Shown here: positions 50,693-55,250 of the stretch, one piece after another
Layout of the letters: each line of letters opens with the position of its first letter
How positions within the stretch are numbered: the stretch's first letter is position 1
Source of the DNA: Flavobacterium stagni
GTDB taxonomy: Bacteria; Bacteroidota; Bacteroidia; Flavobacteriales; Flavobacteriaceae
NCBI RefSeq assembly: GCF_004122105.1
Contig: NZ_SBKN01000002.1
Span: 62,001-126,000, forward strand
Reading direction: 5' to 3'
Length of the DNA: 64,000 bases
Translations under genes and position numbers: made by a program
Notes under the pieces: model-generated
The model's input: the letters and a program-made list of their open reading frames with translations, nothing else
Told to the model about the DNA's origin: nothing
Databases searched by the model: none

Positions 50693-52000
50693 TTAGAATT
50701 GTGCAACTTCAGTCGAGTCTTTCATAGCAACTGTTGACGCTAAACCTAAAGTGACAGTATCTTGAACGGCATCAAAGTAAGATGTCCCTACAAAATTTTG
50801 ATGCTTAACGGCTTTAAATCCTTCTTTTTGTAATGCAAATTCGCGTTCTTGTAACTCAGAATACCCTGCCATACCTCTTTTTTTATACGCCAATGCCAAT
50901 TCGAACATTGATGTATTTAAAGCATGGAACCCTGCCAAGGTGATAAACTGGAATTTGTATCCCATTGCTGCTAAATCTTCACGGAAAGTTTCCATTTCTG
51001 ATACGGATAATTTTGCCGCCCAATTAAAAGACGGGGAGCAGTTATAAGCCAGTAATTTTCCTGGAAATTCGGCATGAATTGCTTCAGCAAATTGGCGGGC
51101 TTGATTCAAATCGGGTGTGGATGTTTCTAACCAAATTAAATCCGCATAGGGAGCATACGATAAACCGCGATCAATTCCTTGTGCAATTCCGGCATTGACA
51201 TAGTAAAAACCTTCCGCAGTGCGCTCCCCAGTAACGAATTTTTGGTCACGTTCGTCAATATCGCTAGTTAATAAGTTGGCTGCATCCGCATCAGTGCGAG
51301 CGATAATTAATGTTGGGACGCCCATTGTATCCGCTGCTAGACGCGCTGCGATGAGTTTGTTGATCGCTTCTTGGGTTGGGACTAATACCTTTCCTCCTAA
51401 GTGCCCACATTTTTTGGCCGACGACAATTGATCTTCAAAGTGAACCCCTGAAGCACCAGCTTCAATCATGCTTTTCATCAGTTCAAAAGCATTTAAATTA
51501 CCGCCAAAGCCAGCTTCTGCATCAGCAATTATCGGAACTAAATAGTCTTTCTTTTCGCTAACTTTGTTTACGGACTGTATTTGATCTGCACGTAAAAGTG
51601 CGTTGTTGATTCGTTTTACGACCAACGGAACACTGTTTGCAGGGTAAAGTGATTGATCAGGGTACATTTCACCAGCTACATTGGCATCAGCAGCCACTTG
51701 CCAGCCACTCAAATAGATAGCTTCTAATCCGGCTTCCACTTCTTGTATTGCTTGGTTGCCTGTTAATGCGCCTAAACCAGCTACCCAACTTTGATGGTTT
51801 AATTTATGCCATAATACCTCAGCACCACGGCGGGAAATACTGTATTCAATTTGATAGGAACCTTGAAGTTCTACTACTTTTTCAGCACTGTAGGGTCGTA
51901 CTATCCCATTCCATCTTGGATTTGTTGACCAATCGTGTTGTAATGCTTGAATTCGTTCAGATGTTTTCATACTTTTGAAAAGTTTTTGATAGTGATTCAT
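50693..52000 (-). CDS. aceA: Isocitrate lyase
   Basis: 435 aa. First enzyme of the glyoxylate shunt: isocitrate to glyoxylate and succinate, allowing growth on acetate or fatty acids. Seen: [34 protein letters not shown] (Asp ligands), the catalytic loop [20 protein letters not shown] with Cys in KKCGHL, and [13 protein letters not shown] near 310, plus [14 protein letters not shown]. The ATG at 52000 gives [11 protein letters not shown]; the family usually begins at the following [11 protein letters not shown] (51970), which is an alternative. It follows aceB by 46 bases and shares its regulator. Confidence 0.96.
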
Positions 52001-52046: not shown

Positions 52047-53630
52047 TTATTCTAAAAATTCGTAAGCTTCTAGGGTTAAGAATTCTGCAAGATCGTCTGC
52101 AGTAATCATTTTGAAAAAGAGTGCTGAAGCCAATTCAAATCGCCCCGACTCATAGCGAGAATCTCCAATACTGATTTTGATTTTTTCGAGTTCTTCTTGC
52201 ACTAATTTTTGGTAATACGATGATGAGCATATTTCATTGTTTTCCAATACGACTTCTTTATTGCGCCAATGCCAGAGTTGAACTCGAGAGATTTCTGCTG
52301 TTGCCGCATCTTCCATCAAATGGTATAAGGCTGCAGCACCTGTGCCCATTAGCCAAGATTCTAAATACAAAATACCGACATGGATGTTTTTGCGAACTCC
52401 ATTCTCGGTGATGGTTCCCTGAGGCAGTTCAACCAACATTCCCTCTGTAATTTGAAGTTCATTTCGTTTGATATGAAGGTGGTTTTTGGTAGGCATATGG
52501 GTATTAAAAACTTTCAACACTGGGGCAACCAAGCCTGGATGTGCGACCCATGTTCCATCATGGCCATTTCGAACTTCCCGTTCCTTATCGGTTATGACTT
52601 TTTGAATGGCAATCGTATTGGCATCTTCATCATTTTTAATTGGAATTTGAGCAGCCATACCACCAATTGCTAGGATATTGCGTTTGTGACAAACTTGTAT
52701 CACTCGCAACGCGTAGGCTTGCATGAACGGACTTGTCATGGTCACTTGATCACGATCGGGGACGAGAAATTGGTCGTGTGTTTTTAATTTTTTGATATAA
52801 GAAAAAATATAATCCCATCTACCACAATTTAATCCAGCAATATGATCCCGTAATTCATAAATAATTTCATCCAGTTGAAAACTTGCTGTTATGGTTTCAA
52901 TCAAAACAGTAGCTTTAAATGTTCCCGTTGGGATTTTTAAATATTGCTGAGCAAATACGAAGACTTCATTCCACCAGCGTGCTTCTAAGTAATGTTCCAA
53001 TTTTGGGATATAAAAAAAAGGACCTTCTTCGTGTTGGTAGGCGTATTGTGCATTGTGAAATACAAATAATCCAAAATCGACCAAAGAAGCCGATAGCCGC
53101 TCATCTCCATAATAAAGATTTTTCTCTTCCAGATGTAAACCTCGGGGTCGAACCAATAATGTAGCAGTTTTAGGACCGAGTTCGTAGGTTTTGGTAGGGG
53201 TTTCTAAGCGTAAAGTTTTACGAAGGGCCGCGTGTAAGTTGAGTTGTCCATCCATGAGGTTTTTCCAAGTAGGCGCACAACTGTCCTCAAAGTCAGCCAT
53301 GAACATGGAGGCACCAGAATTTAACGCATTAATAATCATTTTTGCATCAACAGGTCCTGTAATTTCAACTCTTCGGTCTTGTAATTTTTCGGGAATCGGA
53401 GCTGCTGTCCACGTTCCTGTTCGAATAGCACTTGTTTCTATTGGGAATTTTGGTGTAGCACCTCGATCAAATTCCAATTGCTGTTGCTTTCTTTTTTCTA
53501 ATAGCACTTTACGAGAAGTATTGAATTTTTGGTGGAGTTGTTCAAGAAAAGTAAGTGCCTCGGGGGTCAAAAGGGAAGCGTAGTGCTCGGCATCTTTTCG
53601 AATTGAAATAGTTGTAGTTACAGTTTCCAT
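52047..53630 (-). CDS. aceB: Malate synthase (MSA type)
   Basis: 527 aa, isoform A. Condenses glyoxylate with acetyl-CoA to malate, second step of the glyoxylate shunt. Substrate and Mg contacts: [20 protein letters not shown] (about 105-124), [52 protein letters not shown] (catalytic Arg, Glu and Asp region), [26 protein letters not shown] and the C-terminal [13 protein letters not shown]. Promoter and a palindromic operator lie upstream, shared with the divergent regulator. aceA is next on the same strand. Confidence 0.97.
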
Positions 53631-53653: not shown

Positions 53654-53684
53654 CAATATTATAAAATTAAAAAACACAAAACAA
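53654..53684 (-). promoter_or_regulatory. Promoter of aceB-aceA
   Basis: On the minus strand, TTG (53684-53682), 20 bases, then TAATATTG at 53661-53654, one mismatch to TAnnTTTG. The -33 box directly touches the palindrome at 53685-53696. Confidence 0.6.
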
Positions 53685-53696
53685 GCGAACGTTCGC
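53685..53696. promoter_or_regulatory. Palindromic operator between aceB and the regulator gene
   Basis: GCGAACGTTCGC is a perfect 12-bp palindrome in an otherwise A/T-rich 126-base intergenic region. It lies just upstream of the aceB -33 box and overlaps the -33 position of the divergent regulator's promoter. Its half TTCGCAAA resembles the TTTGCAAA-type sites of RamB/ScfR regulators, and a second similar element TTCCGCAAAAA occurs at 53727-53737. Most likely the regulator's binding site, inferred from position and similarity only. Confidence 0.65.
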
Positions 53697-53713
53697 AAAA
53701 ATGTAAAAAAAAT

Positions 53714-53721
53714 TATTTTTG
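53714..53721 (+). promoter_or_regulatory. -7 box of the ScfR-type regulator gene
   Basis: TATTTTTG, exact TAnnTTTG match, 36 bases upstream of the ATG at 53757. Its -33 position falls in the palindrome at 53685-53696, so the regulator probably controls its own gene. Confidence 0.6.
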
Positions 53722-53756
53722 TGATTTTCCGCAAAAAAATTAAATTTGAAAATTAA

Positions 53757-55250
53757 ATGGAATCAGTAAGAATGATAGAAGAAGAATATATTCGTTTGAT
53801 ATTTGGGTTGAAGATGCGACAAATAAGGAATGAGAAAGATTTGTCATTATTTGGATTAGCTAAAAAAACAGGATTGTCAAAATCCTATCTCAATGAAATT
53901 GAAAAAGGGAAAAAGTATCCAAAACGGGATAAAATTCTCTTATTAGCCGAAGCATTGGATACCAATTATGATGATTTAGTATCATTAAAATTGGATAAAA
54001 ACTTAGCTCCCATTGGTGAAATTTTACAATCCAAAATTTTAAAAGAGATTCCCTTGGATATTTTTGGTATCCGTGAAAGCGATTTGATTGATATTATAGC
54101 GGATGCTCCTTTGAAAGTCAATGCTTTCATAACCACTTTGTTTGAGATTGCCAAGAATTACAACCTCACACGTGAAAGTTTCTTTCTAGCCGCACTTCGT
54201 TCCTATCAGGAAGCTCATGATAATTACTTTGAAGTGTATGAACAGCAAGTGGAACAATTTGCAAAAGCCTATTCAATTGATCTAAATCAAAAATTAGAGG
54301 TGAATGATTTGGAAGAAATTTTGATTGAAGAGTATGGTTATACAATCAATAATGAAGAATTGACACAGCATCGGGAATTGGATAAATTGCGTTCTGTATT
54401 TGTACCAAGTTCAAAAACTTTATTGGTTTCTTCCGAGTCGGATACTTCACAGCGTATGTTCATTTATGCCAAAGAAATTGCATACAATTATTTACAAATC
54501 ACGGATCGGCTATATACCTTTTCATGGATACAGTTTGAACGGTTTGATCAAGTGTTCAATAACTTTGTAGCCTCTTATTTTGCTGGGGCTTTATTGATTC
54601 CAAAGAAACGATTAGTACAATCCCTGAAGTCCTTTTTCAATCAACCCCATTTTCAAGCGGATGCATTTGAAGCCTTGGTGGCAAATTTTACGGATTCACC
54701 CGAGACTTTTTATCAACGCCTGACGAATATACTTCCACATGATTTTAATTTAAAAAACCTATTCTTTTTGCGTTTTCGGTATAAACCTGAACGAGGAGCG
54801 ATACAGTTAACCAAAGAATTGCATATTACAAATTCCTTGGATCCCCATGGGAATGAACATAATGAACACTATTGCCGCAGATGGGTTTCTATACGCAATT
54901 TACAAGTATTGCCTGAGTCTGAACTTACCCAATTGTCTGATGCTCAAATTTCATCCTATACCCATACCGAAAATGAATATTTAGTATTGTCAACGGCTAC
55001 AAAAGATCCATTTCGTAGTGGTTATTATCGAAGTATCGCTTTAGGGATAATGGTCTCTCCTTTGGCAGTACAAACCATCAAGTTTTTGAAATCCGAACAC
55101 TTAGTAAGGCGTACAGTAGGAATCACATGTGAATCATGTTCTCTTCAAGCGTGTGAAGAACGGGTAGCACCCGCCTATAAAATTGAGCGTGATGAACGGT
55201 ATGCTCGAACCGGTCAAGTAGTTCAATCTTTGTTTGAAAAGTATAAATAA
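53757..55250 (+). CDS. ScfR/RamB-type transcriptional regulator (XRE + C-terminal PF09856 domain)
   Basis: 497 aa. An XRE helix-turn-helix lies at about 15-70 (FGLAKKTGLSKSYLNEIEKG). The middle, about 230-290, looks like an ImmA/IrrE-type region (IAYNYLQITDRLYTFSW, SYFAGALLIPKK) but lacks the HExxH zinc motif. The C-terminal short-chain fatty acyl regulator domain has Cys377 (HYCRRWVSIR) and the cluster C458-x2-C461-x4-C466 (TCESCSLQACEERVAP). In actinobacteria, relatives (RamB, PrpR) control acetate, glyoxylate and propionate genes and sense acyl-CoA or metal/Fe-S status. Divergent placement beside aceB makes it the likely regulator of the glyoxylate shunt here. An alternative start is the Met at residue 6. 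Confidence 0.9.
   Translation: MESVRMIEEEYIRLIFGLKMRQIRNEKDLSLFGLAKKTGLSKSYLNEIEKGKKYPKRDKILLLAEALDTNYDDLVSLKLDKNLAPIGEILQSKILKEIPLDIFGIRESDLIDIIADAPLKVNAFITTLFEIAKNYNLTRESFFLAALRSYQEAHDNYFEVYEQQVEQFAKAYSIDLNQKLEVNDLEEILIEEYGYTINNEELTQHRELDKLRSVFVPSSKTLLVSSESDTSQRMFIYAKEIAYNYLQITDRLYTFSWIQFERFDQVFNNFVASYFAGALLIPKKRLVQSLKSFFNQPHFQADAFEALVANFTDSPETFYQRLTNILPHDFNLKNLFFLRFRYKPERGAIQLTKELHITNSLDPHGNEHNEHYCRRWVSIRNLQVLPESELTQLSDAQISSYTHTENEYLVLSTATKDPFRSGYYRSIALGIMVSPLAVQTIKFLKSEHLVRRTVGITCESCSLQACEERVAPAYKIERDERYARTGQVVQSLFEKYK

Follow-up and report, generated by a model that had tools for sequence, protein, structure and literature searches.

A conserved palindrome between aceB and a divergent ScfR-type regulator gene in Flavobacterium, a candidate operator of the regulator

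We found that a perfect 12-bp palindrome, GCGAACGTTCGC, lying between the malate synthase gene aceB and a divergently transcribed regulator gene of Flavobacterium stagni, is very probably bound by the product of that regulator gene. The analysis started from 64,000 nucleotides of contig NZ_SBKN01000002.1, referred to below as the window. Comparison of related genomes shows that the site, the regulator and aceB are inherited together, that the site remains with aceB when regulator and aceB part, and that the regulator family keeps a matching site beside other genes. Binding by the regulator is preferred because it fits this pattern of inheritance best. The full reading, in which the divergent regulator uses the palindrome as its operator and would activate aceBA in its liganded form, we consider likely on the basis of these comparisons. 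Growth on acetate and fatty acids hinges on the glyoxylate shunt, and with the site, the regulator and several natural rearrangements in hand, control of the shunt in Bacteroidota becomes directly testable.

The divergent region and its predicted promoters

The gap between aceB and the regulator gene is 126 bases long, has a G+C content of 21% and holds GCGAACGTTCGC. The features of the region are as follows (window coordinates).

50693..52000, minus strand: aceA, isocitrate lyase (PRK15063, 737.9 bits, cut-off 562)
52047..53630, minus strand: aceB, malate synthase A (TIGR01344, 722.8 bits, cut-off 594.5)
53654..53661, minus strand: predicted aceB -7 box TAATATTG, starting 23 nt past the palindrome
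53676..53700, no strand: extended conserved block around the putative operator, from column frequencies at 147 distinct loci; these were picked by the exact core, so that only the flanks of the block are informative
53682..53684, minus strand: predicted aceB -33 TTG, abutting the palindrome, from the sequence
53685..53696, no strand: putative operator core GCGAACGTTCGC, a perfect 12-bp palindrome, from the sequence and the exact GCGAACGTWCGC at 171/171 divergent loci
53719..53721, plus strand: predicted regulator -33 TTG, by eye, 19 nt before the -7 box
53727..53737, plus strand: degenerate half-site TTCCGCAAAAA, between the regulator -33 and -7 elements
53741..53748, plus strand: predicted regulator -7 box TAAATTTG, with the start codon 8 nt further on
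53757..55250, plus strand: ScfR-type regulator of 497 residues, with an N-terminal HTH, a PrpR-like core and C373, C458, C461 and C466

aceA starts 46 bases downstream of aceB, and the two genes probably form one operon. An earlier sequence-only reading of this DNA had the palindrome touching the -33 box of aceB, and it does abut the TTG at 53682-53684 on the minus strand. The same arrangement, a TTG directly after the palindrome, was found at 121 of the 147 family loci and at 26 of 38 distant loci (manual count). The distance from the palindrome to the aceB -7 box was 23 nt at 112 of the 147 distinct loci and 22 nt at 26; the others had 20 nt (5 loci), 19 nt (3 loci) or no box (1 locus). Because the flavobacterial -7 box covers positions -12 to -5, according to excerpts of PMC9723704, a spacing of 22-23 nt (138/147) places the centre of the site at -40.5 or -41.5. 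In the window, the palindrome occupies positions -47 to -36 relative to the start predicted for aceB and is centred at -41.5, a location that suggests ligand-dependent activation.

On the opposite side, a -7-type box of the regulator gene lies 55-58 nt from the palindrome start at 130 of the 147 loci. The palindrome had also been said to overlap the -33 position of the regulator gene. This proved wrong, since the regulator -7 box at 53741-53748 places the centre of the palindrome near -62, about 62 bases before the predicted regulator start, and the palindrome ends 22 bases before the TTG at 53719-53721. The half-site claimed at 53727-53737 was confirmed as TTCCGCAAAAA, inside the regulator promoter, and TTCGCAAAAATG occupies the half-site position in five of the 12 near relatives displayed (L003, L004, L008, L101 and L103).

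Two further observations concern these flanking parts. In L006, L105, L107 and L194, TTGCAAAA or TTGCGAAA stands in place of TTCGCAAAAATG between the operator and the regulator -7 box, and both are by eye nearer to the actinobacterial TTTGC(A/G)AA box than TTCGCAAAAATG is. Downstream of aceB, two very different forms of isocitrate lyase, about 30% alike, were seen beside a constant operator and aceB: the PRK15063 type (window; L115:2937-4211) and a 531-position PRK06498 type (L108:2566-4194, Polaribacter).

In the reading that we prefer, an oligomer of the regulator would bind AGCGAA-NN-TTCGCT through its N-terminal HTH, and its C-terminal half would carry a [4Fe-4S] cluster and bind CoA or an acyl-CoA. 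The liganded protein would contact RNA polymerase from about -41.5 of the aceBA promoter, a class II position, so that the glyoxylate shunt would be switched on when substrates yield acetyl-CoA. The same site, at about -62 from the regulator start, would set the levels of the regulator together with the half-site in that promoter.

We lean towards activation from -41.5 over repression on two grounds: the spacing hardly varies, and two related proteins activate divergent operons. Excerpts of PMC10370305 describe RamB of Paracoccus denitrificans as an activator of the divergent ms-icl genes, required for their activation on acetate, and MtPrpR of Mycobacterium tuberculosis activates its divergent operon and itself (excerpts of PMC6765138). 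Dual action is possible, since the Paracoccus RamB also seems to act as a repressor on succinate (PMC10370305, in part). That the same operator and regulator form a pure repressor, which would block RNA polymerase by covering the aceB promoter at its upstream end until an acyl-CoA releases it, appears unlikely. The abutment of the palindrome on the -33 TTG would also suit such a repressor, and RamB of Corynebacterium glutamicum represses aceA and aceB (excerpts of PMC4448153); moreover, distant aceB promoters contain extra half-sites, and the operators of two distant genomes, G575 and G786, take repressing positions, as described below. However, the near-fixed spacing (138/147 at 22-23 nt, centre at -41.5 or -40.5) speaks against a repressor of this kind, as does the Paracoccus protein, which has the same divergent layout and is needed for acetate activation.

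Inheritance of the site with the regulator and aceB

The exact GCGAACGTWCGC was present in the 400 bases preceding the regulator gene at all 171 divergent regulator-aceB loci from the own and sister family. These loci (28 from the genus, 80 from named genomes, 23 from a phylum sample and 40 from a family sample) correspond to 153 distinct ones, the source sets sharing genomes; the 23 phylum-sample loci come from the own and sister family, four of them from the latter. The genera among the named genomes include Flavobacterium, Tenacibaculum, Polaribacter, Kordia, Maribacter, Winogradskyella, Algibacter, Ulvibacter, Lutibacter and Oceanihabitans. Outside the 171 stand five entries without a divergent aceB (L018, L219, L223, L320 and L321, the last two being the genes of L219 and L223) and one partial locus (L319). 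Loss of the palindrome from this locus in relatives had been named beforehand as an outcome that would speak against an operator; the site was kept at 171/171 loci.

Among 150 genomes of the genus, the regulator (counted as full-length or near full-length copies) and aceB were both present in 56 and both missing from 94. The exact site occurred in 54 of the 56 regulator-bearing genomes, at one place in each, and the remaining two, G019 and G147, carry a site with one mismatch. It also occurred in 5 of the 94 genomes without the regulator, where no aceB, aceA or regulator gene was found in the 3.5-5 kb read around it. A reversed control pattern matched 25 of the 150 genomes (manual count), indicating that these five sites are at chance level. 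Across 395 genomes of the phylum, the regulator was found in 68 and aceB in 55, with both in 49, the regulator alone in 19 and aceB alone in 6; a genome was scored here as lacking the regulator when a profile built from one genus gave no match at E <= 1e-40. Because the genomes are related, neither the co-occurrence counts nor the locus counts represent independent events.

Rearranged loci gave a second view of this linkage. Six same-genus aceB copies, second or unlinked and without an intact adjoining regulator gene, carry GCGAACGTTCGT, with one mismatch, at the corresponding place (L322-L327), and a seventh such copy has an exact site variant (L065). Regulator genes separated from aceB (L068, L069 and L070) retain sites with one or two mismatches. 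In G019, a decayed regulator copy adjoins aceB (L326:1717-2087) and an intact copy is located elsewhere.

Six phylum genomes matched aceB but not the regulator (G287 and G504 above the TIGR01344 cut-off, G208, G318, G347 and G501 below it), and none of them had GCGAANNTTCGC near aceB. This result argues against binding of the palindrome by another transcription factor, the regulator gene adjoining it by mere coincidence. We regard that explanation as very improbable, as site, regulator and aceB occur together in the genus and the site stays with the regulator where its neighbour is not aceB. That the palindrome is a product of chance, or an RNA hairpin instead of a protein site, is scarcely credible: although some perfect 12-bp palindrome appeared in 1402 of 5000 dinucleotide shuffles of the gap, one with at least 8 G+C was obtained in 2 of 5000 only, the site is present at 171/171 loci, and it lies upstream of both predicted transcription starts. 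The perfect palindrome announced at 53685-53696 is thus present and exceeds chance by the gap shuffles.

The search of the genome for further copies, which the sequence-only reading had proposed, did not return the expected extra sites. The exact GCGAACGTTCGC is a single copy in the 3.18 Mb genome of the strain itself, and near matches with up to two mismatches in the window showed no excess (3 against 1.92 expected). With at most one mismatch, the genome gave 88 forward matches and the reversed control 80, which indicates no excess of one-mismatch sites. The genome scan therefore gives no support to a wider regulon, with one exact site and one-mismatch matches at the control level. In Flavobacterium, regulator and site look like a local switch with one target.

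The regulator protein and its class

The regulator begins with a helix-turn-helix of the XRE/Cro type (HTH_3, 43.4 bits, cut-off 23), which was recovered at E <= 0.1 in all 42 sequences of alignment A2. This alignment and A3, a core profile of 24 sequences, were drawn from 222 reading frames; A2 does not include L272, which lacks CX2CX4C, or L249, in which no reading frame was called. A structure model built from the 42 sequences has a mean pLDDT of 85.2 and is weak at residues 80-140. In a fold search with the model, the chains of M. tuberculosis PrpR ranked first (Foldseek E 3.6e-12), and a structural alignment to MtPrpR (VIA Z 25.4, rmsd 4.3 Å) covered 301 aligned residues between model residues 141 and 487. 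Identity to MtPrpR in the structural alignments is 17-18%. Profile searches of the PDB with A1 (16 rows) returned HTH matches only, and PrpR was reached weakly with A2 (E 0.0023) and A3 (E 0.0003); since sequence profiles reach PrpR weakly, the likeness rests on the fold search.

The cysteines C373, C458, C461 and C466 are invariant in 42/42 A2 sequences. The CX2CX4C motif is aligned with that of PrpR in the A3 profile match, in a stretch that is not significant alone, and C373 corresponds to Cys363 by spacing. One regulator gene, L272, has no CX2CX4C at its predicted C-terminus. Phe240 of PrpR, which contacts the CoA adenine, aligns with Phe235, and the equivalent of His319 is unaligned. These residues are consistent with a [4Fe-4S] cluster and CoA binding in the regulator, which probably senses acyl-CoA.

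Scores of the window protein were also compared with models of the ScfR family, whose members include RamB, PrpR/MccR and PccR. For Pfam ScfRs (PF09856), the window protein scored 16.3 bits against a cut-off of 24, and 26 of the 42 members matched at E <= 0.1 (best 1.9e-6). For the IrrE-like family (PF06114), it scored 17.1 bits against a cut-off of 22, with 41 of the 42 members at E <= 0.1 (best 6.2e-10). The score with the NCBIfam RamB equivalog NF038139 was 46.5 bits, below the cut-off of 700. The assignment to the RamB/ScfR class made from the sequence is right, as judged by the PrpR fold and the PrpR cysteine pattern, and orthology to RamB does not hold (46.5 bits against 700). Judged from sequence and model together, the regulator is of the ScfR type but no RamB orthologue. 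The idea of a Bacteroidota counterpart of the actinobacterial regulators with its site in view stands as far as the conserved site is concerned; the operator, GCGAACGTTCGC here and GCGAA-N2-TTCGC in relatives, differs from the actinobacterial TTTGC(A/G)AA and AA/GAACTTTGCAAA, and no further sites were found in the genome.

The closest parallels share parts of this system. According to excerpts of PMC10370305, the Paracoccus RamB, a class 2 member of the ScfR family, is likewise encoded divergently beside the genes for malate synthase and isocitrate lyase and controls the glyoxylate cycle; it was modelled on PrpR and found to bind CoA esters. Its motif, however, consists of a pair of nearly identical boxes separated by 18 bp, unlike the one palindrome GCGAA-N2-TTCGC seen here, and its deletion also altered ethylmalonyl-CoA pathway genes, whereas the genus has one exact site per genome (PMC10370305, in part). 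MtPrpR (PDB 6CYJ, 6CYY, 6CZ6 and 6D2S) resembles the regulator in the fold of the ligand half, in CX2CX4C with a fourth Cys and in its divergent layout, and differs in controlling the methylcitrate cycle and in its proposed site, TTTGCAAA-N-TTTGCgAA (excerpts of PMC6765138). The C. glutamicum RamB also acts on aceA and aceB but as a repressor with many targets and the site AA/GAACTTTGCAAA (excerpts of PMC4448153).

Distant Bacteroidota relatives

Outside the own and sister family, the phylum sample yielded 45 distant regulator genes. GCGAA-N2-TTCGC was present within 400 bases upstream of 38 of them (mean 0.05 in 20 shuffles), and an outward element, TTCGC-N5-GCGAA, was found in 17 (shuffle mean 0). 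The N2 site is absent upstream of the other seven (L243, L246, L247, L262, L270, L278 and L288), of which L270 and L278 carry the outward element and L262 has the same half-sites spaced by three bases (by eye). When half-site spacings from 0 to 20 were scanned, inward spacings of 19 (10 loci) and 20 (6 loci) and direct repeats of half-sites also stood out, which we take to be additional half-sites. An additional half-site between -33 and -7 is present in several distant aceB promoters.

The gene opposite the distant regulator is aceB or aceA in some lineages. In L258, it is pckA, encoding PEP carboxykinase, with an exact GCGAACGTTCGC in between; elsewhere it encodes aconitase (L244), an acyl-CoA ligase (L248 and L250) or adenylate kinase (L269). 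The GCGAA-N2-TTCGC site is also kept beside the aconitase and acyl-CoA ligase genes. Lineages with other neighbour genes thus offer rewired targets for comparison. Each of G575 and G786 has one GCGAANNTTCGC in its genome (GCGAACATTCGC), at the same promoter of a pyruvate carboxylase-like gene (L329 and L330), just past the predicted -7 box TACATTTG; the pyruvate carboxylase match was obtained with the N-terminal 490 residues. The number of sites does not exceed chance (2 and 1 for the reversed control), and it is the shared promoter position that favours this target, although G575 and G786 are of one genus. The ACGAACGTTCGC of their own regulator gene falls between its -33 and -7 elements, and repression at these promoters is plausible. 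A search for aceB in both genomes, run without a positive genome alongside, was empty.

These comparisons may describe a phylum-wide Bacteroidota module dependent on Fe-S and acyl-CoA, an interpretation that we hold with guarded confidence, as slightly favoured. It would have its own code, AGCGAA-N2-TTCGCT, joined in some lineages by the outward TTCGC-N5-GCGAA close to the start of the regulator gene, and would have been rewired between genes of the glyoxylate shunt, PEP carboxykinase, pyruvate carboxylase, aconitase and acyl-CoA ligase. In Flavobacteriaceae the protein would activate from -41.5, whereas it would repress where operators overlap the promoter core, and HTH residue 42 may read the two central bases. 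Among titles and abstract starts of the open-access literature, most subscription journals lying outside this scope, no paper on such a regulator in Bacteroidota was found, and the palindrome string led, at the same depth, to CpG oligonucleotide, vaccine and immunology topics. A Flavobacterium pangenome study (PMC10655711) reportedly mentions glyoxylate. Proteins of this class have been described before; what looks new is the operator code and how far it has spread.

A separate observation concerns residue 42 of the HTH, in the SKSY motif. Lys at this position goes with a CG operator centre, and other residues go with other centres. The combination of Lys and CG was counted 127 times and Lys without a pattern match 26 times, and the sole exception was one Pro with CG. 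The link tracks the family tree in these sequences and is only a lead. Six of the 26 unmatched cases were examined: three are regulator genes separated from aceB and three have the GCGAACGTACGC form, which the pattern had missed.
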